Shown in pieces: positions 15,938-30,059 of a stretch of 64,000 nt of DNA. Each line of letters starts with the position of its first letter. Position 1 is the stretch's first letter. The notes below the pieces were generated by a model. That model was given only the letters and a program-made list of their open reading frames with translations, did no database searches and was not told the DNA's origin. The stretch is from Clostridia bacterium (GTDB lineage Bacteria; Bacillota; Clostridia; Christensenellales; Aristaeellaceae). The translations under genes were made by a program, and so were the position numbers. The DNA lies in NCBI GenBank assembly GCA_017936765.1, contig JAGBEX010000014.1, forward strand, positions 434,001 through 498,000, given 5' to 3'.

Positions 15938-15955
15938 TTTGTAACAGATTACAAA
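15938..15955. promoter_or_regulatory. operator-like palindrome upstream of the sipW operon
   Basis: Perfect inverted repeat TTTGTAA-CAGA-TTACAAA, 42 bp ahead of the -35 box of the sipW promoter. A half-site TGTAACA recurs just downstream of the -10 (about 16031-16037). The regulator is unknown. Confidence 0.5.
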
Positions 15956-15997
15956 CACTAATGTAAGCCTTTGTCGCTGATTCGTTTGTTTCCTCCA

Positions 15998-16026
15998 TTG
16001 ACCCATTTTCACCTAATGAATATAAT
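15998..16026 (+). promoter_or_regulatory. promoter of the sipW-tasA-sortase operon
   Basis: TTGACC (15998-16003), 17 bp spacer, perfect TATAAT (16021-16026). The leader of about 65 nt contains a small CCCCT/AGGGG hairpin (16050-16064). No other promoter of this quality was seen until the end of the sortase gene, and the gene spacings are short. Confidence 0.8.
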
Positions 16027-16097
16027 TAAGTGTAACAAAATATTTCCAGCCCCTATTGAAGGGGAGTTCTATATTATCGTACGAGGTTACATATATC

Positions 16098-16736
16098 ATG
16101 CGTTTTTTCCGCAAGATTTGGAATGTGATCACCTCCTTGGCTGTTGCCGTTATGATCCTCCTGGCTGTTCTGCTGGTAGGTGTTCGCTTGTTTGGACTCA
16201 CGCCCTACACCGTTCTTTCCGGCTCCATGGAGCCGATATATCATGTAGGTTCGCTGATCTATGTCAAAAAGGTGGAACCCCAGAATATTACGGTCGGAAT
16301 GCCCATCACCTTCATCGTAAATGAAGATCTGTTGGTTGCCACCCATCGTGTCGTAGATCGGCGGGAAATCGACTCTGACGATGGAATGACCTACTATTTC
16401 CAGACCAAAGGCGATGCAAACGAGGCCGTGGATAGTTCTCCCGTGCATTACAAGAACGTCATCGGTACGCCGGTGTTTTCCATTCCATTGCTGGGATATC
16501 TGTCTAGTTGGCTGCAAACCAGGCAAGGGACGATTATGGGCATTGCCATCGCTCTGGTATTGCTGATTTTCACCTTCCTCCCCGATCTGCTCAAGCTGGT
16601 GGACGACGATAAACCCGAACCACCGCCAGCGCCGGAGCCACCTCCGCCTGAAGAACCCGTACCCAACGCCGCCCCAGTAGTGCGCAGGCGACGTTCAGCA
16701 AAATATGAACAAAAGGAGAACCAACATGAAGACTAA
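16098..16736 (+). CDS. sipW: SipW-type (ER-type) signal peptidase I
   Basis: Membrane signal peptidase that removes the special signal peptides of TasA/camelysin-type proteins. The 212-residue protein has a transmembrane helix at about 10-33, then VLSGSMEP with catalytic Ser43, and ATHRVVD with His83 in place of the lysine of ordinary bacterial peptidases, giving the Ser-His dyad of the SipW/eukaryotic class. A second helix lies at about 143-163, followed by an unusual proline-rich cytoplasmic tail and a basic stretch. The ATG at 16098 begins the N-terminal helix; an in-frame TTG at 16056 is less likely. Its last 11 bp overlap the first TasA-like gene, its probable substrate. Confidence 0.92.
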   Translation: MRFFRKIWNVITSLAVAVMILLAVLLVGVRLFGLTPYTVLSGSMEPIYHVGSLIYVKKVEPQNITVGMPITFIVNEDLLVATHRVVDRREIDSDDGMTYYFQTKGDANEAVDSSPVHYKNVIGTPVFSIPLLGYLSSWLQTRQGTIMGIAIALVLLIFTFLPDLLKLVDDDKPEPPPAPEPPPPEEPVPNAAPVVRRRRSAKYEQKENQHED

Positions 16737-17391
16737 GATGAAGAAGATCCTGCTCCTCCTGTGCTGCGCTCTGCTGTTGGTGAGTGTCTCCGTGGGTGTC
16801 ACCGTAGCCTACCTGACCTCCACCTCCACCGAAGTGAAGAACACCTTCACCATCGGCGATGTGAAGATTGATCTGGATGAGGCCGCGGTGGAGTACAATC
16901 CGACAGATAATACTTATGTGGACAAAGGAACCCGTGTGCAGCAGAACACCTACAACATTCTGCCCGGCACTGTTGTCTACAAGGATCCTACCATCACCGT
17001 AGACATGAATAGCGAAAACTGCTATGTCCGCGCTTTGGTAACCATTACATATCCCAAGGGAACCTTTGAAGCAGATTGGCTCAGCGCGCCTGGCAACGGC
17101 TGGGAAATCAGCACAACCACTACAACTGAAACCACCGACGCTACAACCAACGAAGTTACCTGTACGATGGTTCAGGAGTACCGCTACAAGACCGTAGTGG
17201 GCAAGAACACCGCAAGCGATACCGTCCTTTCCCCCATTTTCACTACGCTGACCATCCCCACCACACTGACCAACACCGATATTGCCAAGCTGAAGGACTT
17301 TAAGATCGATGTTGTTGGCCATGCCATTCAGGCCGGTGGCTTTGCCGATGCCAATGCTGCCTGGACTGCCTTTGGCACCCAAAACAATTAA
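16726..17391 (+). CDS. TasA/camelysin-like protein 1 with SipW-type signal peptide
   Basis: A secreted 221-residue protein. The signal peptide ends SVSVGVTVA|YLTSTSTEVKNTFTIGDV, the SipW-dependent pattern, so cleavage after Ala28 is predicted. The mature part is Thr-rich and beta-rich, like TasA fibre subunits or CalY. It ends with HAIQAGGFADANAAWTAFG, a motif shared with the next two proteins. The start at 16726 has AAAAGGAG 8 bp ahead and overlaps the end of sipW. A role as a matrix fibre subunit is inferred from the family and from sitting directly behind its peptidase. Confidence 0.82.
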   Translation: MKTKMKKILLLLCCALLLVSVSVGVTVAYLTSTSTEVKNTFTIGDVKIDLDEAAVEYNPTDNTYVDKGTRVQQNTYNILPGTVVYKDPTITVDMNSENCYVRALVTITYPKGTFEADWLSAPGNGWEISTTTTTETTDATTNEVTCTMVQEYRYKTVVGKNTASDTVLSPIFTTLTIPTTLTNTDIAKLKDFKIDVVGHAIQAGGFADANAAWTAFGTQNN

Positions 17392-17418
17392 TTTGTTCGA
17401 ATGAAAGGAGCAACCACT

Positions 17419-18054
17419 ATGAGTGAACGCACCAACTCCCGCATCTCCCGCAAAAAGGCTCAGCGCCAGCTTCGCATGAAGCGCGTACTGCTCACCGCCA
17501 GCCTGATGGTTCTGGTGGCCGTGGTATCCATCGGCGGCACCATCGCCTGGCTGCAGGACGGCACTACCACCATTACTAACACCTTTGCTCCTACGGGGAT
17601 TGATATCGAGCTGACGGAAACCAAAAATGGTCCTTATAAATTGATCCCTGGCGAAGAGTTTGACAAGAATCCCATTGTGACCGTTGTAGGCAGCGAGAAG
17701 AACGTGGATATTTACCTGTTTGTCAAGTTTGAAGAAATTGCTCCAGGCAGCAAAACAACCAGAAATTATCTCGACTATACTTCCACACTTAATACCGACA
17801 ACGAATGGACGCAGGGTGACGGCAACACTATTCCCAAAGATGTTTGGTATCGTACCGTTTCTGCTTCCACTACCGATCAGGAGTGGCACCTGTTAGCTGG
17901 CGATAAGGTAACCGTATTGGATTCCCTTACGAAGGAAAATATGCCTAATGCAAATGAAGTTCAGCTGAAGTACACCGCCTATGCCATCCAGACTGCTGGC
18001 TTCGAAAATGCTGCCGCAGCCTGGGCTGTAGCAAAAACTTATTCTGCCAACTAA
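17419..18054 (+). CDS. TasA/camelysin-like protein 2 with SipW-type signal peptide
   Basis: A 211-residue secreted protein with a longer, very basic N-terminal region (residues 1-22) before the hydrophobic core. The signal peptide ends VVSIGGTIA|WLQDGTTTITNTF, with predicted cleavage after Ala43. The mature protein contains KLIPGEEFDKNPIVTVVG, the TasA-like strand in which the chain lists its junction with the following domain, and ends YAIQTAGFENAAAAW like paralogues 1 and 3. ATG at 17419 follows AAAGGAG. Probably an alternative or capping fibre subunit; that assignment is inference. Confidence 0.8.
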   Translation: MSERTNSRISRKKAQRQLRMKRVLLTASLMVLVAVVSIGGTIAWLQDGTTTITNTFAPTGIDIELTETKNGPYKLIPGEEFDKNPIVTVVGSEKNVDIYLFVKFEEIAPGSKTTRNYLDYTSTLNTDNEWTQGDGNTIPKDVWYRTVSASTTDQEWHLLAGDKVTVLDSLTKENMPNANEVQLKYTAYAIQTAGFENAAAAWAVAKTYSAN

Positions 18055-18075
18055 CCCCACCGGAGGTAATCAGCA

Positions 18076-18798
18076 ATGACGAAGCGCAAGATCATGATGC
18101 TCAGCCTGGCGCTGTGCATGGTAGCCATTCTGGCCATCGGCGGCACGCTGGCCTATTTCACCGATACAGAGACCGCCACCAACGTGTTCACCGTGGGCGG
18201 TGTGGATATCACCCTGTTTGAAAGCAAGGTGCGCCCCGAAGATGACACCGAGGGTTTCCCCGGCTACGTGGATGCCGACGATGACGACCGTACTGTGACC
18301 GAGAACACTTACGCAAGCCTGCTGCCCGGCTCCTACATCTGCAAGGATCCCACCGTGACCAATGTGGGTGAAACGGATGCTTACATCCGCGTGAGCATCA
18401 AGCACAACAATCAGGATGCCATCTTTAATGCCTTCGAGAACGAAACCGCTTTCCTGGCCGCGCTGCAGGGCATGAGCAACACCCTGTCCAAGGTGGAGCA
18501 TACCGATGTGGCCTGGAAGCTGGCCGACGGCACCGCCGGTGCTGATGCAACCAACCGCAACACCTACGATTTGGCTGCAAACGAGAAGATCTATGTGATG
18601 TGGCTGACTGATGCGCTCTCCAAGGATAAGTTTATAACAATGTTCACCGGCATCCAGATCCCCAAGGATTTTGACGAAGCCGACATGGAAGCCTTTGATG
18701 ATTTGAAGATTACCATCTGGGCCGATGCCATTCAGGCCGACGGATTTGCCAATGTTAAGGCTGCCTTTGAAGCTTTCGATGCCGCCAAGAGCAACTAA
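18076..18798 (+). CDS. TasA/camelysin-like protein 3 with SipW-type signal peptide
   Basis: A 240-residue secreted protein and the most canonical of the five. Its signal peptide ends ILAIGGTLA|YFTDTETATNVFTVGGVD, matching the SipW-cognate signature closely. The mature region has SLLPGSYICKDPTVTNVGETDAYIRVSI, the typical TasA-like beta sandwich strand pattern, and the C-terminal DAIQADGFANVKAAFEAFD. It is acidic. A GGAGG lies ahead of the ATG at 18076, which is 21 bp after the previous stop. It may be the major subunit, but relative abundance cannot be judged from sequence. Confidence 0.85.
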   Translation: MTKRKIMMLSLALCMVAILAIGGTLAYFTDTETATNVFTVGGVDITLFESKVRPEDDTEGFPGYVDADDDDRTVTENTYASLLPGSYICKDPTVTNVGETDAYIRVSIKHNNQDAIFNAFENETAFLAALQGMSNTLSKVEHTDVAWKLADGTAGADATNRNTYDLAANEKIYVMWLTDALSKDKFITMFTGIQIPKDFDEADMEAFDDLKITIWADAIQADGFANVKAAFEAFDAAKSN

Positions 18799-18837
18799 AC
18801 CAATCCATACCCATGCTGAATGAAAGGAGGGGAAACC

Positions 18838-19416
18838 ATGTGCAAGCGCAAGGTGCTGCTGCTGGCAGCCGCCATTTGCATGATCGCCATTCTTGCTGCA
18901 GGCGGCACGCTGGCCTATTTTGTGGCGGAAGAAACCGCTTATAATGTGATCACCACCGCTGTGCTTGCCATGGAGCTGCGGGAGGAGACCAGCAACGGTC
19001 AGCCCTGGCCGGAAAAAGGTGTACACCAGCTGGTGCCAGGCTCCACGGTAGACAAGATCGTCACCATGGCCAACACCGGCAGCGTGGATTTCTACGTTCG
19101 CGCATCGGTGAATACTGCTGTCGCCTCCGGCACCGGAGATCCCCTACCCTTCGAGCATATCACTCTTGACTACAACACCAGCGACTGGACGGAGAAAGAC
19201 GGGTACTTCTATTACAAGCAAGCCCTTCTTCCTGGCGAGGAAACCTCTCCCCTGTTTACAACAGTAGCTTTCTCCACCACCATGGGTAACGAGTATATGA
19301 ACGCCCGACTGGAGATTGGCATTAATGCACAAGCCGTGCAAAGCAAGAACAATGCAGAGGATGTTCTTTCCGCCACCGGCTGGCCCGAACAGGATAAGGA
19401 CGGAGATCAAACGTGA
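18838..19416 (+). CDS. TasA/camelysin-like protein 4 with SipW-type signal peptide
   Basis: A 192-residue secreted protein whose first 26 residues closely resemble those of paralogue 3 (ILAAGGTLAYFVAEETAYNVIT), which suggests duplication. The mature part contains HQLVPGSTVDKIVTMANTGSVDFYVRASV, again the TasA-type strands. It lacks the AIQxxGF C-terminal motif and ends instead with a hydrophilic tail. ATG at 18838 follows AAAGGAGGGG. Its stop codon overlaps the GTG start of the CHAP protein, so the two are translationally coupled. Confidence 0.8.
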   Translation: MCKRKVLLLAAAICMIAILAAGGTLAYFVAEETAYNVITTAVLAMELREETSNGQPWPEKGVHQLVPGSTVDKIVTMANTGSVDFYVRASVNTAVASGTGDPLPFEHITLDYNTSDWTEKDGYFYYKQALLPGEETSPLFTTVAFSTTMGNEYMNARLEIGINAQAVQSKNNAEDVLSATGWPEQDKDGDQT

Positions 19417-21737
19417 AGCGATTGACCGCGCTGCTGTTGGTCATGTGCTTCGCGCTGCTGTGCCTTATCCCGGCACCCGCAGCCTTTGCCAATAGCAGCA
19501 TTGCCACCCAAACAGATATCGCCACCGCTTCTCCCGAAGCGACGGCAATCGAATCTCCTGCCTGCACCACAGAGTCTGCGGCGGAGGCCCCCCCCTCTCC
19601 CACAGTTGAATCCACCCCTGCACCCACTGAGTCTCCCGCCACGCCGGAAGCTACTGATGGGTCTGCTTCTGTTTCTCCCAGCGGCGAGCCGTCTCAGACG
19701 CCTGCAACTGCAGAACCTTCTGCAGAACTCACACCCGAAATCGCAGCAGAGCCTACTGCCGAGCCTACAGAAGGATGCACCGTCGAGCCTTCTCTGGCGT
19801 CCACAGAAGTGCCGACAGAAAAAACCACAGCAGAGCCCACGGCGGAATTGTCTCCCAGCCCGGAGTCCATGTCTTCGGAAGCTCCCACCGCAGAGCCAAC
19901 GCATGAACCAAGCACAACGCCCACCGAAGAACCTCCCGCCGAGCCAACCATCGAACCGACGTTTGAGCCAACTGTTGAACCAACTACAGATATTTCCCCC
20001 GAACCAACCGCAGAGCCAACTGCTGAGCCAACCGTTGAACCAACCGCAGAGCTGACTGCTGAACCGACAGCCGACCCCACACCTGACCTCACACCAGAAC
20101 CCACAGCAACGCCTCTGCCGTTGACGCTCCGGCTTTCCTGTCCAGCGCGCTATGCCTTTGCCAACGAGGAAGGCATTACACTCACGGCCAGCTTCGCCGG
20201 TGGCGTTGCACCCTATCAGCTTCAGTTTATGGCACAGGATGCAGCTAACACCCTCGCCGTTCAAACCGCTACTGCGGATGCAGAAAACAGCCACAGCTTT
20301 ACTTACCTCCCCACTACCGGAGGAGATCATATCCTGACAGTAACCGTCACAGATGCCCTGGATAACGTGACCGCTGCCAACATAGTGTTTCCCGTTGCCA
20401 TTCACAACTGGGAATATGCGGGCGACTGGGTACACAGCGTAAGCAGCGCAGAACTGTCTGGCGATTGGCGCACCGACCTGGTGGCTGTGGCACGCACACA
20501 ACTGGGCTACAGCGAAAGCACCATCGACTTCAAGATCGATGATAACGGCATTCGCCGCGGCTATACGCGCTATGGCGCCTGGTATGGCGCAGCCTATAGC
20601 GAGTGGTGCTCCATGTTCGTATCCTTCTGCCTGCATTTTGCCAACATCCCCGCTTCCGATGTTCCCCAGGAAGCCCATTGCGGGACTTGGCAACGTGCAA
20701 TCCGCAGCAAGGGTGCCTATCGCACGCCTGCAGCGGACTATATGCCCCAAGCTGGTGACATTGTGTTCTTCTCCTGGTATGAGGACGATGAAGCCGAACA
20801 TATCGGCATTGTGGAAAACGTTGATGGCACTACTCTGTACACCATCGAAGGCAATTCGTCCGGTAGTGTTCGCCGCAGAGAATATTCCCTGACTGATAAG
20901 GCCATCGTTGGCTATGCCAGCATGACCCGTCTGATGGAAAAGGCCGGCCTTTTACGTGAATCCGCTGCCACCATGGCCGAGGAGTTGCCCGAAGGTGCTC
21001 TGGGCAAGGGCTATACCCTTATTGGCAGCGTAAATATGCGCAGCAGGCCCTCAACCGAAAGCACCCGTATCGCCACCATCAAGCGAACCAACACAGGCGT
21101 CGTTTTGATGGACTACGCCTACGCAGGCGACGAGTTGTGGTATAAGGTACACCATGATGGTGTTATCGGTTATATCCGCAGCGACCTGCTGGACGCTGTA
21201 CTGCTTGTCCCTCTGTCCATGCAGGTGGTTGCCCAGCCAGAGCCAATCAGCTGGACGCCCGACATGGGAAACATCAGTCTCGTCTTCCAGGTACGCAATG
21301 CCCAGGGGTACCGCTGGGAACAGAGACTCTCCGCCAACGGTACGACTACCTGGACCCCTATCAGCGAAGACAACACATTGACGCTTATCCCCACTCCTGA
21401 AGCACTTCGCTGCTGCTACCGTTGCGTAGCTTACACCACCCAGGGTGAAACGCTTACCAGCGATGTGATCACCCTGCTGGCCGAGCCTTATTTCTCCTGG
21501 CTGCAAACGACCGTCGTCACTCCCGATATGCTCCAACGCGCCTTCAACGCAGGCGGGCTCGACCTGCTTGTACTGGAGGACGATTCCCTTGTCCATGTGC
21601 GTACCGGCCAAACCATCGCGCGCTACCGAGCAGACCTTGGTTACTTTGTCGATTGCTCCACCGGCCTGATCGTAGCTTACCTCGATTCCGTCACCGGCAA
21701 GCTTGCCCCCGTGGTTACGCAGGCCGATATTTACTAA
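19413..21737 (+). CDS. secreted CHAP/SH3 cell-wall hydrolase with Pro-Thr-Glu linker
   Basis: A 774-residue secreted protein probably cutting peptidoglycan. Order: signal peptide (1-27), a long low-complexity linker of EPTAEPT-type units (about 30-235), an Ig-like segment (about 238-330), a CHAP amidase/endopeptidase domain (about 350-505; Cys about 400 in SEWCSMFVSF, His in EAEHIGIVEN), a bacterial SH3 domain (about 528-595; VNMRSRPSTESTRIA) and a C-terminal region of unknown fold. It starts with GTG, overlapping the stop of TasA-like protein 4. Placed among fibre genes, it may open the wall for fibre export or tether them; this is inference. Confidence 0.85.
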   Translation: MKRLTALLLVMCFALLCLIPAPAAFANSSIATQTDIATASPEATAIESPACTTESAAEAPPSPTVESTPAPTESPATPEATDGSASVSPSGEPSQTPATAEPSAELTPEIAAEPTAEPTEGCTVEPSLASTEVPTEKTTAEPTAELSPSPESMSSEAPTAEPTHEPSTTPTEEPPAEPTIEPTFEPTVEPTTDISPEPTAEPTAEPTVEPTAELTAEPTADPTPDLTPEPTATPLPLTLRLSCPARYAFANEEGITLTASFAGGVAPYQLQFMAQDAANTLAVQTATADAENSHSFTYLPTTGGDHILTVTVTDALDNVTAANIVFPVAIHNWEYAGDWVHSVSSAELSGDWRTDLVAVARTQLGYSESTIDFKIDDNGIRRGYTRYGAWYGAAYSEWCSMFVSFCLHFANIPASDVPQEAHCGTWQRAIRSKGAYRTPAADYMPQAGDIVFFSWYEDDEAEHIGIVENVDGTTLYTIEGNSSGSVRRREYSLTDKAIVGYASMTRLMEKAGLLRESAATMAEELPEGALGKGYTLIGSVNMRSRPSTESTRIATIKRTNTGVVLMDYAYAGDELWYKVHHDGVIGYIRSDLLDAVLLVPLSMQVVAQPEPISWTPDMGNISLVFQVRNAQGYRWEQRLSANGTTTWTPISEDNTLTLIPTPEALRCCYRCVAYTTQGETLTSDVITLLAEPYFSWLQTTVVTPDMLQRAFNAGGLDLLVLEDDSLVHVRTGQTIARYRADLGYFVDCSTGLIVAYLDSVTGKLAPVVTQADIY
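19536..20115 (+). repeat. degenerate 12-15 bp coding repeat (EPTAEPT units)
   Basis: Within the CHAP gene the DNA is built from short degenerate units encoding E-P-T, A-E-P-T and V-E-P-T. It resembles the PTE-rich repeats of the surface protein gene at the right end of the window. Such tracts readily change length by slippage. Confidence 0.7.
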
Positions 21738-21754
21738 CTTCTCGGAGGCATTCC

Positions 21755-24700
21755 ATGAATATGCGCACCCGACTGACTGCCCTGGTTCTGGCGCTGCTGA
21801 TGTTTATCAGCACGCCAGTTTCCGCATGGGCAACCACCGTGGACGCGAATACATATGCCCAATGGCTCCAGGATGCCCAGGCGGTTTCTGCCCAGCAGCA
21901 GAAAATGATTACCACCTCCGAGGAAATTCTCACCACTACTGATGTCACCTACACCGGCACCGCCACCAACCGCAACACCACTTTTCTGAACCTGACCGGA
22001 ACCACTTCCGAGGACACCACCCTGCCCCAGCAGAGTATCACCCTGCCCGTGGCCGGTTCTGCCACGCTGTATGCACCCAGCGGTGCGGAAAGCTATCAAT
22101 GGCAGGTATACGTCAGCGGTGTATGGGCAAACATTCTGGGTGACACCGCCGCCTCCATCACCATGACCTACCCCATGCTCAGCAATGCACTTTCTGGCAA
22201 CAGCGCTCTGGTGCGCTGCCGCATGGAGCAATCGGGCGCTACCGTGTATAGCGCCGAGACCCAAGTCACGGTGGATCATACCATCACCACCACGGCCTAC
22301 ACCACCACTCGGAGCATCCCTGTGCAGGCCACAGAATACACCACCACCCGCAGCGCAAACAGCGGCATCATGCTGCTTGCTACCGAGCCGCAGCAGACCT
22401 ACCTGATCACCATTCAGTATCTTTTTAAAGACGGCACCCCTGCCGCCAACCCGGTGATCATCCAGACCGGCTCTTCCTCCGGCACCCAGACCTACACCGG
22501 TACCGTAGCCTTGCCCAAAGTGACCGGTTATGACGTAGGCACACCCAAAGACCTCCCCACCGGCGTGACCTACAATGCAACAAACGCCACCCTTCAGTTT
22601 ACCAACTTTTCCGTGACCGAAAACAAGAACATCACCATCACCTATGTTCCTGCATTGGTCAGCTATACTGTTGTCTATTGGCAGCAGAAGGTAGGTGGCG
22701 ACTCCAACGAGGACTATGAAAAAGTTGAGAAAGACACACGCCAGTTCCAGGGCTACACAGGCGATACCGTAGCCACCGACCTTGCTCCCGGCGACAAGTA
22801 CCATGGTTTCCGTCCTCTGCTCTACGATACCGGCACCCCCATTGCTGCTGACGGCTCCACCGTGGTGAATGTCAAGTATGACCGTGAATACTATCTGATC
22901 AAATTCAACCTCGACGGCGGCACAGGCGTAGACCCGATTTACGCCCAGTTTGGTGCGCCCTATAATGTCAATGAACCCACGCGTGCAGGTTATTCGTTCG
23001 CCGGTTGGGATCCTGCGCTGCCTGCCGTGGATGAACGGACGATTCCGTATAATGGTGCAACCTATACTGCACAATGGAATGCAAACGAAACCAGCTTTAC
23101 CGTGGTTTACTGGCTGGACGACCCGAATGACAACACCGAAGACCTAGAAAAACGAAAGTACAACTATTGGGGATCTTCAACCCAAAAAGCAAAATCCGGC
23201 ACAATAGTAGACGGTGCAACATATCAAGACTATAAAAAAATTGCAAATTACCAAACCCTTCTCAACCCATATGAAGTTCGATACTCTACCTATTCTCATG
23301 CAGATAAGAATGTGACCATCAAAGGCGATGGCTCCAGCGTGGTGAATGTGTATTATAAGCGCAATGTTTACGAAATGCGTTTTTATTACGCAATGGAAGA
23401 TGCCAGCGGAACACCTTATGTGGTTGGTGGTTCCACATATTATTTCGGCAATCCAGACAGCAATACCGGATCAATTCCCTCATGGGTTGATAAAGATGAT
23501 GAAATATCGTTATTGAGCCGTTTTTTAACGAACGGTGATTATGCAAAAGGAACCGTCGGAATCATTGAGAACCTTCCGCAATTGACAGAGGAAGGTCTCC
23601 GGCGTTATGGTTCCACTAAAACGGTTTCCGATGACGCGAAGCGAAAATATCATTATTTCTCTTTCTCTGCAAAATATGGTGCAGACCTAAGTGACTTGTG
23701 GCCCGTGGTTAATGTCATGAACAGCATTACACCTTCTGACCCAGCCAATAAAAATTATCCTGCATCCATGAGTGCATGGAATGGTGAATATCGTGTGTAT
23801 TATTCACAACACAATACCAACCAAACAATCAAAGGCGTATATAGCCAGCTTGATTATCAAATCCTTTGGGATAATAATTGCAACGTTACCGGTCATCCGA
23901 GTGGAGATAGCGATGTAGTTTCTTTCCTGTGCTTCTGGGAAAACGGCGCAAACATTGGCTGGAGTATTCCCGAGCTTTATAGATATTATATTTATGTTCC
24001 CGCATTATCGAACGAAAGTATTGATAAGACATATAATGGTATAGACTATCATTTGCACTCCTGCTATGATACCGTCGATAATTCGTCGGTTGAGGAGCAA
24101 ACCGCTCCTGCAATTGCAGGTTTTAGCTATCCGCCAGTTCGCACTTCAAGGAAGATGTCTGATTCCGAATTTGATACAAGTAAATATACGGAGGCACACG
24201 AGGTTTATTTCTTCTATAACCGCCTCCCCTATAATCTTGAATTGCATAATGCAGGCACAACAGACAAGCATGAAAATGTTCTTTTCGGCCGTAACATCGC
24301 TGAGTATGTCACAACAGTTCCCGAACACCCCGACGAATCGTTGCGTGCTACGCATGAGTTCGGCGGCTGGTATCTCGATCCTGATTGCGTCGAGGGAACG
24401 GAATTCTACATTGATCAAGAACCTACCATGCCCGCCCACAATCTGATGCTCTACGCCAAATGGAATCTTGTGAAGCATCATGTGAATGTATACCTCACAA
24501 AAGCACACATGGAAGCTGGTTCCGAGGTGGATGGCGAACTTCTTTATTCCGATACCGTGGAGCACGGCACCCTTATTCCTGAGCTTTCTCGCCCTCAAAC
24601 CCCGGTAAACGGCAGTTACAATTTCGTTCATTGGTTCTACGAGGTCGAGAATGACGACGGCACCATAACCGAGCATCCTTTCGATTTCGCCAGCATCCCC

Positions 24701-26755
24701 GTAATTCATGATCTGAACATCTACGCCAAGTGGAGTACTGATGTGGTCATGAATTACAAGGTTTACTATGTAAAAAAAGGAACCGGCGAAGCCATTGGCG
24801 ATGCAACGGAATTTGTGGCAGACCTCAGCGCTGGCAGCGCTTTGGCCGGCACCAGCAAAACCTTCTATGCTAAGGGTGTTACCGAGCTTTACGAAGCCTA
24901 TCAGACCGGCTGGTTCCCCGAAACTCAAAGCCACACCATCTCCATCGGTATAGATGAAGATAAAAACAGCTACACCTTTAAGTATGTTCAGGTTGATAAG
25001 GTTCCCTATCAGGTTTGCTATGTGGATGAAAATGGCAACTCTCTGCGCGACCCTGTAACTGTTTTCGACAATGACAAAGCTGTGGTGACCGAGAATTTTG
25101 TGCTGATTCCCGGCTATGTTCCTGATGCCTTGCAAAAGCGCTTGGTTGTTGCCTATGATGCCAATGCAGACATCGACAAGCCCACAGAAGCAAATACCAT
25201 TACTTTCGTTTACAAGAGAGACGAACAAACCGCCATGTATGTGATTAACCACTACCTGGTGGATAACGCCGGAAATGAAACCTTGCACAGCTACCAAACT
25301 TCTACCGCTACCATGACTAGTGATACCCCCGCAACGGTCACGGCCAATAAACTGAACCTTGATGGTTATCATTTCTCCAACGTGAAATGCGAAATCGCAG
25401 AAGGTGATGATCAGAACACAACCTTCGATAAGACTTATCTCAGCGTCACCATGAAACAGGGGTCCGCCGGTTTTGTGATGAACCTGTACTATCAGGAGCA
25501 AACGGCGACGATCAACTACTTGGTAGCCAGCGGCTGCGAAAGCATGGGCAGCGTATCCCTCGCCAGCGAAACGCTGGGTGTGGTTACCGGCACTCCTGTT
25601 GGTTCTACCCCCACAGCCAATCAAGGCTTCAAGTTCGTGGGATGGTACTCTGATGCTGACTGCACTCAGCCTGTGCTGTTGGGTGTTAATGCTGACAATG
25701 GCACCCTGACCCCCATGCGCAATCCTGGTGAGCTGTGGACAGATGTCACCTACTACGCCAAGTTTGTGTTAAATGTGGCTGATCTGACCATCACCAAAGA
25801 GGTTGTGGATGCCATCGCAACCGATAATTTCCATCCTAATGCAAACACAGAGTTTTCCTTCCTAGTGCAAATTGGTGGGAAGAACTATGTTGGCGGCTAT
25901 ACCGTTGCCGGACAGCATGCTTCAACGGCAAACGGAATTATCACCCTGAAGGCTGGTGAAACTGCCAGCATCAGCGACGTGACCATCGGCGAAGCCTACA
26001 CTGTAGTCGAGCAAACGCTGCCCATGGGCTACACCTGCGAAGACGACACAGTGAGAGGCACCATTCAAGAATCTAGCAACGACGTGACCATTACCAACAC
26101 CTACCAGGTGCGCAGCCTGACCATCAACAAAGCCGTCAAGGGCGGCGATGCCCCCAGGGGCGAAGTATTCTACTTCAACGTCACCCTGCCCAACGGCAGC
26201 TATGCAACATTGACCGATGGCAGCATGCAGTCCACGCTTACAGTAGCAAACGACCAGGCAACCGTGCTGCTGACCGCCGGCCAGACAGTTGTGATTTCCG
26301 GCATCCCCTATGGAGCTGAGTATGCCGTAACGGAGCAGGCCCATGCGGATTACAGCACCGGAGTTGCAGGAGCTTCCTCCGGCAGGCTGAATACCGATGT
26401 CAGCATGACCTTCACCAATACCTATCTTTACAGCCACTTGACCGTGACGAAGAAAGGTATGACTCAAGGCAGCGCCATTGTGCATGTCAAAGTAGCCGAT
26501 ACAACCTACTCCGTTGTGCTGAACGGCGACAACAACTGGACACAAACCATTGCTCACCTGCCCATCGGCGCGACAATTGACGTACAGGAAGCCACCGACT
26601 GGTCCTGGCGGTATAGTAAGGCACCCACCATCGTCCATGCTGACAAGGTCACCGAAGGCGGCTCTACTGCAGACATTACAAACACTCAGGCCGAAACCAA
26701 GTGGCTGGACGACGAGTCTGCTCAGGCCAACATTTTTAGCGGCGACAACAACTAA
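21755..26755 (+). CDS. giant repeat adhesin (InlB B-repeat, MucBP-like and Cna-B/SpaA-like domains)
   Basis: A 1666-residue secreted protein. A signal peptide (1-27, ending SAWA) precedes repeated beta domains: an Ig-like region (about 90-160), InlB B-type repeats with the RAGYSFAGWDP and HEFGGWYLDP signatures (from about 375 and 860), MucBP-like units (YQVCYVDENG, MYVINHYLVDNAGNE; about 1085-1250) and three SpaA/Cna-B-like domains at the end (LTITKEVVD, LTINKAVKGGD, LTVTKKGM). No LPXTG-like motif, membrane helix or cell-wall-binding repeat is seen at the C-terminus, which ends in an acidic tail. ATG at 21755 follows CGGAGG. Codon use becomes AT-rich between about 23150 and 24450. Confidence 0.85.
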   Translation: MNMRTRLTALVLALLMFISTPVSAWATTVDANTYAQWLQDAQAVSAQQQKMITTSEEILTTTDVTYTGTATNRNTTFLNLTGTTSEDTTLPQQSITLPVAGSATLYAPSGAESYQWQVYVSGVWANILGDTAASITMTYPMLSNALSGNSALVRCRMEQSGATVYSAETQVTVDHTITTTAYTTTRSIPVQATEYTTTRSANSGIMLLATEPQQTYLITIQYLFKDGTPAANPVIIQTGSSSGTQTYTGTVALPKVTGYDVGTPKDLPTGVTYNATNATLQFTNFSVTENKNITITYVPALVSYTVVYWQQKVGGDSNEDYEKVEKDTRQFQGYTGDTVATDLAPGDKYHGFRPLLYDTGTPIAADGSTVVNVKYDREYYLIKFNLDGGTGVDPIYAQFGAPYNVNEPTRAGYSFAGWDPALPAVDERTIPYNGATYTAQWNANETSFTVVYWLDDPNDNTEDLEKRKYNYWGSSTQKAKSGTIVDGATYQDYKKIANYQTLLNPYEVRYSTYSHADKNVTIKGDGSSVVNVYYKRNVYEMRFYYAMEDASGTPYVVGGSTYYFGNPDSNTGSIPSWVDKDDEISLLSRFLTNGDYAKGTVGIIENLPQLTEEGLRRYGSTKTVSDDAKRKYHYFSFSAKYGADLSDLWPVVNVMNSITPSDPANKNYPASMSAWNGEYRVYYSQHNTNQTIKGVYSQLDYQILWDNNCNVTGHPSGDSDVVSFLCFWENGANIGWSIPELYRYYIYVPALSNESIDKTYNGIDYHLHSCYDTVDNSSVEEQTAPAIAGFSYPPVRTSRKMSDSEFDTSKYTEAHEVYFFYNRLPYNLELHNAGTTDKHENVLFGRNIAEYVTTVPEHPDESLRATHEFGGWYLDPDCVEGTEFYIDQEPTMPAHNLMLYAKWNLVKHHVNVYLTKAHMEAGSEVDGELLYSDTVEHGTLIPELSRPQTPVNGSYNFVHWFYEVENDDGTITEHPFDFASIPVIHDLNIYAKWSTDVVMNYKVYYVKKGTGEAIGDATEFVADLSAGSALAGTSKTFYAKGVTELYEAYQTGWFPETQSHTISIGIDEDKNSYTFKYVQVDKVPYQVCYVDENGNSLRDPVTVFDNDKAVVTENFVLIPGYVPDALQKRLVVAYDANADIDKPTEANTITFVYKRDEQTAMYVINHYLVDNAGNETLHSYQTSTATMTSDTPATVTANKLNLDGYHFSNVKCEIAEGDDQNTTFDKTYLSVTMKQGSAGFVMNLYYQEQTATINYLVASGCESMGSVSLASETLGVVTGTPVGSTPTANQGFKFVGWYSDADCTQPVLLGVNADNGTLTPMRNPGELWTDVTYYAKFVLNVADLTITKEVVDAIATDNFHPNANTEFSFLVQIGGKNYVGGYTVAGQHASTANGIITLKAGETASISDVTIGEAYTVVEQTLPMGYTCEDDTVRGTIQESSNDVTITNTYQVRSLTINKAVKGGDAPRGEVFYFNVTLPNGSYATLTDGSMQSTLTVANDQATVLLTAGQTVVISGIPYGAEYAVTEQAHADYSTGVAGASSGRLNTDVSMTFTNTYLYSHLTVTKKGMTQGSAIVHVKVADTTYSVVLNGDNNWTQTIAHLPIGATIDVQEATDWSWRYSKAPTIVHADKVTEGGSTADITNTQAETKWLDDESAQANIFSGDNN
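23150..24450 (+). other. AT-rich block inside the giant adhesin gene
   Basis: This part of the reading frame has clearly more A and T, and many AT-ending codons (TAT, AAA, GAT, AAT), than the GC-rich codons on either side. The frame is intact. It covers roughly residues 465-900, between the first InlB B-repeat unit and the later repeats. It may be a recombined domain block. Confidence 0.6.
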
Positions 26756-26773
26756 CAAGGAGGGAAAAGCGCC

Positions 26774-27292
26774 ATGAAACGGAATATCAAAGCTATCCTT
26801 CTGCTGGCGCTGATCGCCATACTGCTGCTGGCGTCGGTGGGCACCACCTGGGCATATCTGGTCACCAGGCCAAAGACCATCACCAATGTATTCGAACACG
26901 CCCATGTAGATACGGAAATTGTTGAAGTCTTCGATGGTGCCACCAAGAGCAGCGTTATCATCCAAAACAAAAGCAACATTGCGGCTTTTGTCCGTGTTGC
27001 CATCGTAGGCAACTGGGTAAAAGATGGAGCCATCATTGAACCTTGGAATGGTAGCATCACCCCCGCCGCTGGCTGGACGAAGCAGGGCAGCTACTACTAT
27101 TACACCGCTCCTGTTGCCGCAGGTGCTTCCACGCCTAATTTACTCGGCAGCGCCATCACCAGCGCGTCCCGAGCCGACGGTGCTGTATTGCGCATTGATA
27201 TCCTTCAGCAAGGCATTCAGGCCGAACCAGTCAACGTTGTAAAAAGCGTGTGGGATGTTGATCCCACTACCCTCGCAGGAGGTGGCGCATGA
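26774..27292 (+). CDS. TasA/camelysin-like protein 5 with SipW-type signal peptide
   Basis: A 172-residue secreted protein, the shortest and most divergent of the five. The signal peptide ends LLASVGTTWA|YLVTRPKTITNVFEHAHV, still of SipW-dependent type. The mature part has NKSNIAAFVRVAIVGNW and a Tyr-rich loop (SYYYYTAP). It is separated from the other four by the CHAP protein and the adhesin, so it may have a distinct role such as an anchor-proximal subunit. The stop overlaps the next ATG by 4 bp, coupling it to the PHTG membrane protein. AAGGAGG precedes the ATG. Confidence 0.78.
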   Translation: MKRNIKAILLLALIAILLLASVGTTWAYLVTRPKTITNVFEHAHVDTEIVEVFDGATKSSVIIQNKSNIAAFVRVAIVGNWVKDGAIIEPWNGSITPAAGWTKQGSYYYYTAPVAAGASTPNLLGSAITSASRADGAVLRIDILQQGIQAEPVNVVKSVWDVDPTTLAGGGA

Positions 27293-27900
27293 AGCAGTTT
27301 TTCCGGATTGCTTTGCTTCTCCTGGTGTTGATGGTTTCTGGCGCTGTGGCAGAGTCTTCAGTGCGCTACGAAGGCGGCGCAGAGGAATTTGTTTTTCTCC
27401 CTGGCAGCACAGAATCCGACACAGATCTGTTCACTAGCTTCAAAAACGTTCTCCCCGGTGATGTACTAACCCAGCATATCACGGTTGAAAACACCTCAGG
27501 CAAGCGCATCCGCCTGTACCTTCGGGCAGACCCTGTGGATGAATCCCATCGGGATTTTCTTTCGCAGCTGCAGCTTTCTGTCTCCTGCCGGGACAACAGC
27601 ATTTTTGAGGCTGCCGCCAGCGAGTCCGCCCAGCTATGGCGCAATATTCCCTTGGGTACCTTCCGCACCAGCGGCAAAACCGAGCTGGTGGTAACGCTCA
27701 CCGTACCCGTAGAGCTGAACAACACCTACATGGGTGCCATGGGCATCATCCCCTGGGTTTTTACCGCCGATGAGATCCCCACCGACGATACGCCCCACAC
27801 CGGCGACTGGTTCCAGCTGTCCACCTGGCTGCTGCTGGGTGCCGCACTTCTGGCCGTTATTCTGACCCTGATCATTGTATACAGACGTTGCCGGGTCTAA
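27289..27900 (+). CDS. membrane protein with PHTG-type sorting signal
   Basis: A 203-residue exported protein. A signal peptide (1-21, ending GAVA) precedes a beta-rich extracellular domain (VLPGDVLTQHITVENTSGKRIRLYLRAD) that looks like a TasA-like or pilin-type sandwich. The C-terminus is TPHTGDW, a hydrophobic helix (about 176-197) and RRCRV, the three-part layout of a sortase sorting signal. Clostridial class B sortases are known to accept PXTG-type motifs, and a class B sortase lies two genes downstream. It is the only protein of the operon with such a signal, so it may be the wall anchor for the fibre. If not cleaved, it would simply be a membrane anchor. Confidence 0.75.
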   Translation: MKQFFRIALLLLVLMVSGAVAESSVRYEGGAEEFVFLPGSTESDTDLFTSFKNVLPGDVLTQHITVENTSGKRIRLYLRADPVDESHRDFLSQLQLSVSCRDNSIFEAAASESAQLWRNIPLGTFRTSGKTELVVTLTVPVELNNTYMGAMGIIPWVFTADEIPTDDTPHTGDWFQLSTWLLLGAALLAVILTLIIVYRRCRV

Positions 27901-27909
27901 GGAGAAAGT

Positions 27910-28041
27910 ATGCAAAAAAAGGTTCTGATCGCCATTCTGTTCTTGTGCGTCGCCCTCCTTGTGGTGGCAGGCGTGATTCTTTATCAAGAATACCAGTATG
28001 CGCAGGGCATCGCCTATTACGACAGCCTGCGCAGCCGATGA
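27910..28041 (+). CDS. 43-residue single-pass membrane peptide
   Basis: MQKKVLIAILFLCVALLVVA starts a hydrophobic helix (about 5-24), followed by ILYQEYQYAQGIAYYDSLRSR. GGAG lies 6 bp before the ATG, and the sortase ATG follows 13 bp after the stop. The helix plus YDSLR looks like the N-terminal membrane anchor of class B sortases, but the sortase that follows has its own signal sequence and is in a different frame. It could be a detached anchor, a sortase partner or a remnant. Confidence 0.6.
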   Translation: MQKKVLIAILFLCVALLVVAGVILYQEYQYAQGIAYYDSLRSR

Positions 28042-28054
28042 ACACGGGGGAACC

Positions 28055-29041
28055 ATGCTGAAACATTTTATTATCTTGCTTGTTTGTCTCGTACTCCTAC
28101 CCAACACGGCTTTGTGCAATACGCTGTCTGCGGAGGACGCCCATGCCATCGTAGATAGCCTATTTGCCGCAGCAGCAGGTGTAGATACACAGGACGAAGC
28201 CACGCTGCGCAAAGGTATGTCCAGTGATACCACCGCTTTACGCGATACCCAGCTATCTGGCTACCGCAAGGTCGTATATCCCTGGCTTTTGGCCTCCCTG
28301 CTTGGAGAACAGTCCGACCCGAATGCGATCTCCTCCGCTGCTGAAGCAATGTTGAGCAATGAGGTTGCCCAGCATTATCTGTCTTTGCTAACCACCAAGG
28401 GGGCAACGACCATCGAAGAGCAGCTGTCATTGACTCACGTAGCCTTCCTCCAATGGGCGAATGAGATCAATCACATAGCACTGCGCATGACCAATCCAGC
28501 ATATGCCTGCTGGATCTACCTTCCAGGCACCCCCATCGACTATCCCGTTGTGCACAGCGACAACAACAAGACCTATCTGAACCATATGTTCGACGGCACC
28601 CGCAACGCCAGCGGTACCCTATTCATCGACTACCTCAATCTACCAAATTTTCAGGATCCCAACACCCTGATCTATGGACACCATATGCGCAATGGCACCA
28701 TGTTTGGCACGCTGCCCCACTTCGACAAGCCAGGCTATGCCGCAGCACACCCCTATCTGCTTGTGATGACATCCCAAAGCCTGCTGTTGGCAGAACTGTT
28801 TGCCGGATACGTTACCTCCAGCGACGACCATTGCTATGATATTGCCATCAGCGACGCGGAGGATCTACTCCACTTTGAGGAGACCGCCCAACGCAAGTCG
28901 TCCTTCACGATACCCATGGAGTTCTCCCTTTCTGACCGCCTGCTGACCCTGTCCACCTGTGCCTATGCCTTTGAAAACGCCAGGTACATTCTGATCGGCA
29001 AGATCAATATCCTATGGACACAAGAAGAACCCATGCACTAA
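28055..29041 (+). CDS. srtB: class B sortase
   Basis: Transpeptidase that attaches sorting-signal proteins to peptidoglycan. The 328-residue protein has an N-terminal signal sequence (1-21), a helical region, then the sortase barrel: YPVVHSDNNKTYLNHMFDG, catalytic His209 in YGHHM, catalytic Cys302 in LTLSTCAYAF and the Arg at about 310 in NARYILIGK. TLSTC and the helical insertion before it are the class B pattern. The helical N-terminal part (about 22-150) is longer than in many SrtB enzymes. ATG at 28055 follows GGGGG. It closes the sipW operon and is followed by a strong terminator. Confidence 0.9.
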   Translation: MLKHFIILLVCLVLLPNTALCNTLSAEDAHAIVDSLFAAAAGVDTQDEATLRKGMSSDTTALRDTQLSGYRKVVYPWLLASLLGEQSDPNAISSAAEAMLSNEVAQHYLSLLTTKGATTIEEQLSLTHVAFLQWANEINHIALRMTNPAYACWIYLPGTPIDYPVVHSDNNKTYLNHMFDGTRNASGTLFIDYLNLPNFQDPNTLIYGHHMRNGTMFGTLPHFDKPGYAAAHPYLLVMTSQSLLLAELFAGYVTSSDDHCYDIAISDAEDLLHFEETAQRKSSFTIPMEFSLSDRLLTLSTCAYAFENARYILIGKINILWTQEEPMH

Positions 29042-29061
29042 CGAAACTGCCCTGAAATATC

Positions 29062-29097
29062 AAAAGGCTGGCATATGCAATGCATAACCAGCCTTTT
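29062..29097. terminator. bidirectional terminator between srtB and the pyridoxal-type kinase
   Basis: AAAAGGCTGG / CCAGCCTTTT arms (29062-29071 and 29088-29097); U-runs on both strands. It ends two convergent transcripts. Confidence 0.85.
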
Positions 29098-29110
29098 GCT
29101 TCATCATTTT

Positions 29111-29953
29111 TCACAGCAATTCAAGTTCCTTCATCAACCCCGGCAGCGCCTGCTCAAAGGCCACGCCGTAGTGCAGCGGCAAACCGTTCTCCACCGTGTA
29201 CAGCATGGCTTGGTGGGTGAAGTTCACAGCGATCTTCGCCGCCTCGCCGGTGGTTTTGCCGTGCAGCATGGCCGCAAACAGGGCAGAGGCAAACACATCC
29301 CCCGTGCCATAGAACACATGGGGCAGCCGAGGCGCACCGGCGAAGGTGCAGCTGCCGTCCGCAGCACAGAAGCCTGCCGCGCCCAGTTCATTGCCCCGAT
29401 GCACCCCGGTGATGAACACCTGGCCGCAGTTAAACTTCGCCGCCAGCGCTTCCAGCAGGATGCGCACGTCCTTTTCGCTGGGATGCTCCACATAGGGCTT
29501 GTTCAGCAGGATGCACGCCTCCGTCACATTAGGGACGATCACATCCGCCAGCTTGCACAGTTCGCCCATGCCGCCTGCCATTTCCCTGGTGTAGGTGGCG
29601 TAGAGCTGACCATGGTCGGCCATCACCGGATCCACCAGCGTCAGCCCGCCTTCCTGGTGATAGGTGTGCAGCACATCCCCCACCAGGCGGATCTGCTCAA
29701 AGCTGCCCAGAAAGCCGCTATACAGGCCGTCGAATTTCAGGGGCAGGCTGCTCCAATGCCCCAGGATGCGGTGCATTTCCTCCGTCAGGTCAAGGCAGGA
29801 ATAGCCTGTAAACACGCCCGTGTGGGTAGAGAGCAGCGCTGTGGGCAATGCTGCCGTGTGAATGCCGCAGGCTGCCAGTACGGGCAGGGCTACGGTGAGG
29901 GAGCAGCGGCCTTCGCAGCTCACATCATGAATGGCCAGGGCGCGTTTCTGCAT
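29111..29953 (-). CDS. pyridoxamine/pyridoxal kinase
   Basis: A ribokinase-fold kinase of 280 residues that salvages vitamin B6 by phosphorylating pyridoxal or pyridoxamine. Signatures are the N-terminal AIHDVSCEGRCSLTVALPVLAACG, STHTGVFTGY, VDPVMADHG and the anion-hole/ATP motif YGTGDVFASALFA. It is the usual length for the PdxY/PdxK group. HMP kinase activity is an alternative that sequence cannot exclude. The ATG at 29953 has AAAGGAGG upstream; a longer TTG start lies inside the promoter. Confidence 0.85.
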   Translation of the reverse strand: MQKRALAIHDVSCEGRCSLTVALPVLAACGIHTAALPTALLSTHTGVFTGYSCLDLTEEMHRILGHWSSLPLKFDGLYSGFLGSFEQIRLVGDVLHTYHQEGGLTLVDPVMADHGQLYATYTREMAGGMGELCKLADVIVPNVTEACILLNKPYVEHPSEKDVRILLEALAAKFNCGQVFITGVHRGNELGAAGFCAADGSCTFAGAPRLPHVFYGTGDVFASALFAAMLHGKTTGEAAKIAVNFTHQAMLYTVENGLPLHYGVAFEQALPGLMKELELL

Positions 29954-29980
29954 GATCCTTCCTCCTTTGGGTATGCTTGC

Positions 29981-30009
29981 ATCATACAGCACCTTGCGCA
30001 ATTTGTCCA
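29981..30009 (-). promoter_or_regulatory. promoter of the pyridoxal-type kinase gene
   Basis: Minus-strand TGGACA (30004-30009), 17 bp spacer and TATGAT (29981-29986). It is back to back with the promoter of the ACT gene. Confidence 0.6.
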
Positions 30010-30030
30010 GTATCCTACCCAATGTTTGCC

Positions 30031-30059
30031 TTGACAAATCCGTGACATTTCATTATAGT
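30031..30059 (+). promoter_or_regulatory. promoter of the ACT-PFL operon
   Basis: Perfect TTGACA (30031-30036), 17 bp spacer and TATAGT (30054-30059), about 40 bp before the ACT-domain start. Confidence 0.7.

Follow-up and report, generated by a model that had tools for sequence, protein, structure and literature searches.

A Cluster of Eleven Co-Directional Genes

A stretch of 64,000 nucleotides from a Clostridia bacterium of the Aristaeellaceae (contig JAGBEX010000014.1, positions 434,001 to 498,000; the whole stretch is referred to as the window) was analyzed. It contains a cluster of eleven co-directional genes, here named A to K, on the plus strand between window positions 16098 and 29041, and all eleven genes of the original prediction, which was made from the sequence alone, were confirmed. 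The cluster encodes a SipW-type signal peptidase (A), five TasA-like proteins (B, C, D, E, and H), a probable wall hydrolase (F), a giant adhesin (G), a predicted wall-anchored protein (I), a membrane peptide (J), and a class B sortase (K). The spacing between neighboring genes is −11 to +39 bases, from which we infer that A to K are co-transcribed as a single unit, and a Shine-Dalgarno-like stretch was seen by eye upstream of most of them. The analysis centers on the C-terminal tail of G, which resembles the donor strands of TasA-like proteins, and on protein I as the possible base of a fibre.

Signal Peptidase and TasA-Like Proteins

Gene A (16098 to 16736) encodes a 212-amino acid protein that matches TIGR02228 above the cut-off (92.9 bits, E = 1.8e-26), carries the motifs SGSMEP and THRV, and is the sole match to this model in the whole genome, in agreement with the SipW-type peptidase predicted earlier. 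Its score against NF046067, the model of the Bacillus SipW, lies below the cut-off (87.7 bits, cut-off 190).

Five proteins with SipW-type signal peptides had been predicted downstream of A. Three of these, B (16726 to 17391, 221 amino acids), D (18076 to 18798, 240 amino acids) and E (18838 to 19416 with an alternative start at 18820, 192 amino acids), exceed the cut-off of TIGR04088 (22.0, 44.4, and 21.2 bits) and are the only three matches to this model in the whole genome. D also exceeds the cut-off of the full-length model PF12389 (27.5 bits). The assignment is weaker for C (17401 to 18054, 217 amino acids) and for H (26774 to 27292, 172 amino acids), which adjoins I and occupies the same position in relatives: no match to TIGR04088 was reported for either protein, and both were assigned by eye and by matches to the BsaA family model TIGR04090 (25 and 39.9 bits). 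The matches of C, D, E, and H to TIGR04090 all remain below its cut-off of 60 bits (56.8 bits for E), and B matched neither PF12389 nor TIGR04090. Judged from the sequences, a count of five SipW substrates is reasonable, with C and H as the weaker cases. The N-termini after predicted cleavage are YLTSTSTEVKNTF in B, WLQDGTTTITNTF in C and YFTDTETATNVF in D. Among the TasA-like subunits, E scores highest to distant loci; its profile reaches the archaeal protein AbpX at E = 0.0072, and its AlphaFold2 (AF2) model (predicted local distance difference test, pLDDT, 83.1) has the TasA fibre 8aur as its top Foldseek match. The fold comparisons point towards donor-strand fibre proteins, with middling scores.

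A Donor-Strand-Like Tail on the Adhesin

Gene G (21755 to 26755) encodes an adhesin of 1666 residues, as predicted, that contains Flg_new, DUF7601 and DUF5979 domains. Inspection of its C-terminus revealed neither a sorting motif nor a transmembrane helix. The protein ends in a tail (KWLDDESAQANIF) that resembles the mature N-termini, the probable donor strands, of TasA-like proteins; KWLDDESAQANIFSGDNN stands directly after the last immunoglobulin (Ig) domain, and the W and N of the tail are invariant in all ten aligned adhesins. In Bacillus subtilis TasA, residue 28 is presumably the first residue of the mature protein. The donor strand of this protein is described as residues 28 to 38, with contacts made by F29, I32, and F39 (PMC9674648), and TapA was suggested to act as a donor because its N-terminus is similar (PMC9674648; PMC10151520).

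The resemblance was tested with a position matrix trained solely on TasA-like N-termini, with the adhesin's own locus excluded, that was scanned along whole proteins; the tail region was defined as the last 32 residues. Five out of 40 N-termini were discarded as false before counting, and a few mis-set N-termini that the matrix retains (L061, L144, L107, and L104) are expected to weaken it. In G, the top scan window out of 1690 was WLDDESAQANIF (26702 to 26737), within the tail. The 24 proteins from SipW loci were selected as the large protein of their cluster; several are related, and they do not represent 24 independent events. The tail held the best scan window in 11 of these 24 proteins (0.57 expected) and was among the best four in 18, with ranks of 11, 11, 32, 34, 41, and 68 in the remaining six. 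Fourteen adhesins with the same Ig domain and no SipW genes in the stretch served as controls: the tail was best in none of them and never ranked better than 36. Two open reading frames (ORFs) of L104 and those of L105 and L106 belong to neither group because their neighborhood is unclear (their ends ranked 1, 6, 1, and 6 under an earlier matrix), and the cut ORFs of L148, L150, L154, L158, and L159 were excluded.

A second test used a sequence pattern that was set after inspecting the first ten adhesins. The tail was found in 20 out of 22 Ig adhesins near TasA-like or sipW genes and in one out of 16 without such genes (Fisher p = 1.3e-7, a value that ignores relatedness). The regular expression matched L102 at another stretch and the second ORF of L104 at a position 44 residues from the end; L108 and two proteins of L113, which entered the matrix test, are absent from the pattern test because its Ig-only profile missed them. 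The tail is absent in all nine adhesins that carry an anchor motif of their own. A homologue search with the tail region of the adhesin returned five proteins, with G itself first. Based on the two tests and on the B. subtilis data, the tail of G is read as a donor strand.

Adhesins with a terminal Ig domain were also identified at L105 (5289 to 11690, genome G254) and L106 (8319 to 14756, genome G187), on stretches without SipW genes; the tail is present in L105, and both genomes carry an I locus on another contig (L116 and L176, respectively). Large proteins of SipW or I loci with C-termini that are acidic or otherwise lack a donor-like tail were found at L193 (6910 to 9879), L195 (257 to 3172) and L177 (3830 to 5341).

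The Predicted Anchor Protein and Its Sortases

Gene I (27289 to 27900) encodes a predicted wall-anchored base protein of 203 amino acids with an ordinary signal peptide and, by eye, no donor-like N-terminus. The sorting motif PHTG (27793 to 27804) is followed by a transmembrane helix and a basic tail (RRCRV), which fits the anchoring predicted earlier; P-x-T-G is invariant in 26 out of 26 aligned relatives and the motif varies in more distant ones. I has 423 homologues and no family match in the NCBIfam and Pfam scans. TIGR01167 has no match in the whole genome, indicating that this general LPXTG model is blind to I. The AF2 model of a relative (P0064) resembles TasA and AbpA with middling scores, and a TasA-like fold is predicted for I on this basis; when the PDB was searched by sequence with the profile of I, two weak matches were obtained (E = 0.12 and 0.16).

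Natural fusions of I to TasA-like domains were observed directly in four loci. A single 566-amino acid ORF of L115 (7853 to 9553) combines a TasA-like domain, an I domain and three SLH domains, so that a wall-binding SLH module stands in place of the sorting motif. Single ORFs of L116 (9896 to 11779, 627 amino acids) and L176 (8762 to 10687, 641 amino acids) join a TasA-like domain to an I domain, and L116 contains a PQTG-transmembrane stretch and a second TasA-like protein with a SipW-type signal downstream in the same frame.

Gene K (28055 to 29041) encodes a protein of 328 amino acids with its own signal peptide. The prediction of a class B sortase is supported by the motifs GHH, TLSTC, and NARY and by a match to TIGR03064 (E = 6.2e-45) that scores 153.4 bits for the protein (cut-off 153.75) and 154.0 bits, above the cut-off, in the genome search. 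Class B sortases are known to carry an N-terminal membrane segment in the same chain. This segment is missing from K, whose match covers positions 64 to 234 of the 235 in the profile. The predicted 43-residue membrane peptide is present as gene J (27910 to 28041), and its reading can be refined: homologues of J adjoin K, and J and K are fused in L143. Because of this fusion and the late start of the K profile match, J is probably the detached N-terminal membrane segment of K. J itself did not match TIGR03064. A family of its own was considered for J and rejected: with E values up to 10 allowed, the NCBIfam matches were all weak, many of them to membrane proteins and none to a sortase, and the L143 fusion is the better guide. 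Compared with the single chain of L143 (8195 to 9478), the arrangement in the window (27910 to 29041) would represent a split sortase.

The neighborhood of I was examined in 35 loci, the window and 34 others (L178, a TasA-like protein, L201, without SipW genes, and a second weak ORF of L109 were excluded). A sortase lies beside I in at least 16 of these. Class B sortases were found in eight loci (the window, L033, L034, L035, L036, L053, L058, and L143), and sortases of another kind that exceed the cut-off of PF04203 in eight more: L109 (16732 to 17445), L193 (4066 to 4707), L195 (5526 to 6185), L198 (8694 to 9323), L200 (8600 to 9181), L100 (12163 to 12753), L192 (11337 to 11945), and L177 (1 to 432). 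Five of the latter were scanned with NCBIfam and are nearest to classes C, D, and E, at scores below the cut-offs of those models. For the remaining 19 loci the check consisted of a motif script of low sensitivity, supplemented in part of them by a comparison with K; the script detected two of the eight sortases outside class B, the others being found by eye and confirmed by Pfam, and 16 out of 35 is therefore a lower bound. The motif [TS]P[HDE]TGD is present in all eight class B loci and LPxTG-like motifs in many others; L144 has TPETGD with no sortase seen beside I, and L099 has PDTDD. Different sortase classes are thus paired with the same anchor protein across lineages.

Synteny and Distribution

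Seven further loci (among them L053, L058, and L143) show the gene order G-H-I-J-K; J and K are fused in one of them, and G is truncated by the contig end in two. Homologues of K that match beyond the sortase domain were found in four out of 17 same-genus genomes (G017, G005, G016, and G002), where each adjoins I, H, and J. In three of the four an adhesin was found using the G of the window; the fourth locus (L036) encodes a 2168-amino acid protein, missed by the whole-protein search, with a terminal domain that is 36% identical to that of G and with the same tail. The sortase and the TasA-like genes, whose synteny in relatives the original prediction proposed to check, are therefore neighbors outside the window as well, and the finding named there as refuting, that they adjoin each other in no relative, does not apply.

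I was present in nine out of 250 genomes sampled from the family (E = 1e-10), 11 out of 291 from the class (E = 1e-4) and nine out of 398 from the phylum (E = 1e-6), the window included, and the system is therefore patchy. A scan of genome contigs with the I of the window alone found nothing, and a scan with the I alignment found ten loci, four of which (L054 to L057) duplicate L035, L033, L036, and L034 and were counted once. Sheep rectum, goat cecum, and water buffalo cecum appear in the titles of metagenome-assembled genomes of relatives, suggesting that the cluster probably belongs to a gut bacterium; one I and two E homologues are labelled Aristaeellaceae.

A Possible Wall-Anchored Fibre with an Adhesin at Its Tip

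With slightly better than even confidence, we propose that the product of the cluster is a fibre anchored in the wall: donor strands would connect its subunits, G would close the free end, and I, the protein with the PHTG motif, would form the base. Cleavage of B, C, D, E, and H by A would free an N-terminal strand on each of them, and this strand would insert into the groove of the following subunit in the way shown for B. subtilis TasA (PMC9674648). I, with its predicted TasA-like fold and no donor strand, would receive the strand of whichever subunit comes first, perhaps H, and K, held at the membrane by J, would join I to peptidoglycan at P-H-T-G. The one groove left empty at the far end would be occupied by the tail of G, and the adhesin would thereby sit at the tip, perhaps on E; the placement of H at the base and of E at the tip is guessed from the order of the genes. 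F may open the wall for the fibre, as its domains suggest. K need not polymerize anything, as only I carries a sorting motif. Of this scheme, the recurring gene order, the likeness of the tail to donor strands and its link with SipW loci, the natural fusions (I with TasA-like and SLH domains, J with K) and the sorting motif are direct observations, and the sequence of steps is inferred. It is also possible, at somewhat less than an even chance, that the system is a Gram-positive counterpart of the tipped chaperone-usher pilus that needs neither chaperone nor usher: a polar donor-strand fibre with a half-connection at either end, namely a donor-only tip adhesin and an acceptor-only base of TasA fold, and with a dedicated wall device for the base (SLH domains, or a sortase of class B or of another class) that lineages have exchanged freely.

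Several results limit the reading of the tail or weigh against the proposed fibre. Covariation of the tail with the donor strands of its own locus was not significant. Among ten phylum-level stretches picked by I alone, a clear tail was present in two of seven large cluster proteins (L194 and L200), a short or degenerate one in L196 and L197 and none in L192, L193, and L195. At class level, the end of the large protein is degenerate in L115, L116, and L176, and no recognizable tailed adhesin was found in the I loci L114, L177, L179, and L180. The tail is therefore confined to a subset of these systems. Furthermore, the chain direction of the tail relative to the body of G is opposite to that of a subunit donor strand, which poses a geometric problem for docking, and BsaA polymers and pellicles are described as unchanged in a Clostridium perfringens srtB mutant (PMC7395162).

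The missing tails and the covariation result, together with the shortness and partial degeneracy of the motif, would suit a coincidental likeness to donor strands, the tail being simply a conserved terminus of the final Ig domain or a peptide that docks onto a partner that is not a subunit groove. This is rather unlikely: the homologous Ig domains outside SipW loci lack the tail in both tests, with a single exception in the pattern test, and the matrix was built without any adhesin information. The position of the tether, on the side opposite to that of a normal donor strand, might mean instead that G sits along the side of the fibre or attaches to its base, and the donor residues of TasA are reported to contact the next two subunits (PMC9674648). 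A donor-free groove would be expected at one fibre end only, and we regard a lateral or basal G as rather unlikely.

The remaining alternatives concern the role of the wall. Classical sortase-assembled pili typically come from an operon that carries its own sortase together with several surface proteins, and some class B sortases are said to polymerize pilins, so that K might join the subunits covalently. This is very improbable and was rejected because no subunit has a sorting motif; by eye, B, C, D, E, F, G, and H all lack a C-terminal motif with a transmembrane helix, which only I has. The TasA-like proteins could also form a released, BsaA-like biofilm matrix with fibres that are not fixed to the wall and with I and K as a side branch. 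The BsaA polymers of C. perfringens are described as mainly extracellular and form without SrtB (PMC7395162), and the BsaA family model is matched by C, D, E, and H, if below its cut-off. However, I shares its locus and, in four cases, its reading frame with TasA-like proteins, and the frequency of sortases of some class beside I and the SLH domains of L115 speak for wall attachment; a released matrix is unlikely.

Comparison with Known Systems

The tapA-sipW-tasA operon of B. subtilis contains one TasA and is not known to include a sortase or a giant adhesin. Like the present cluster, it has a SipW-type peptidase and TasA-like subunits whose mature N-termini are of the same kind; donor-strand assembly is predicted for the cluster as well, and in both a further protein presents a donor-like strand (TapA there, G here), but the donor mimic is located at the N-terminus of TapA and at the C-terminus of G. 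A TapA would combine an N-terminal donor strand with a complete Ig domain, whereas the signal peptide of I is an ordinary one and its N-terminus, judged by eye, is not donor-like; the TapA model was absent from the NCBIfam matches of ten cluster proteins at E = 0.1. The TasA/CalY/CapP system of Bacillus cereus is called sortase-independent by its authors (PMC13082335). The archaeal bundling pili of AbpA and AbpX are also TasA-related donor-strand fibres, and the E profile reaches AbpX and the model of the I relative AbpA. We know of no sortase or wall anchor in the AbpA/AbpX system. Sortase-assembled LPXTG pili share an operon-borne sortase and an adhesin with the cluster, but the subunits here lack a sorting signal. 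The F-ENA endospore appendages share a base anchor predicted to accept the N-terminal hook of a subunit and a dedicated tip protein, but differ in fold and genes, are found on spores and, as described, use no donor-strand exchange (PMC11952670).

A further parallel is the sipW-bsaABCRSD operon of C. perfringens, which has SipW, BsaA-family proteins and a nearby srtB and for which filamentous polymers, predicted here, are described (PMC7395162). There, srtB lies in the 5' flank and is dispensable for polymer and pellicle, and the operon includes a two-component system (PMC7395162); it is not known to include a giant adhesin. The idea that no similar system had been described is, as worded, unsupported in view of this adjoining srtB (PMC7395162), and the original prediction of a wall-anchored heteropolymeric fibre is supported in part: it fits the synteny and the fold comparisons. 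The component parts belong to known kinds, and what is new is the donor-like tail of G, the TasA-like fold predicted for I and the varied wall-attachment devices beside I. Searches of the open-licence PMC literature listed no paper that describes a TasA-type fibre anchored by a sortase or an adhesin ending in a donor tail of the TasA kind. TapA and CapP are partial answers, in Bacillus, to how a TasA-type fibre starts, ends and attaches to the cell. If the proposed fibre is correct, the locus would provide a dedicated tip and a dedicated wall anchor for such a fibre, it would explain large adhesins without a sorting signal in operons of this kind, and a donor-like C-terminal tail beside SipW genes would become a sequence rule for recognizing tip proteins in those gut Firmicutes that are represented by metagenomes alone.

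Remaining Gene and Boundaries of the Cluster

Gene F (19413 to 21737) encodes a 774-amino acid protein in which CHAP and SH3_3 domains were both matched above the cut-off (PF05257 and PF08239), as predicted, and is probably a secreted wall hydrolase. The consensus promoter predicted upstream of A is a good match (TTGACC-17-TATAAT, 15998 to 16026, plus strand, 11 of 12 sigma-70 consensus positions), but such sites are about as frequent in shuffled sequence (16 in the region against 12.1 in shuffles, standard deviation 3.3), and the candidate promoter is therefore weak evidence. A candidate for the strong terminator predicted downstream of K is a hairpin on the plus strand (29061 to 29098, folding energy −21.1 kcal/mol), which was not among the sites listed by a terminator scan of the region. 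Beyond it lies a convergent gene on the minus strand (29111 to 30037) that presumably encodes a PfkB-type (pyridoxamine) kinase.

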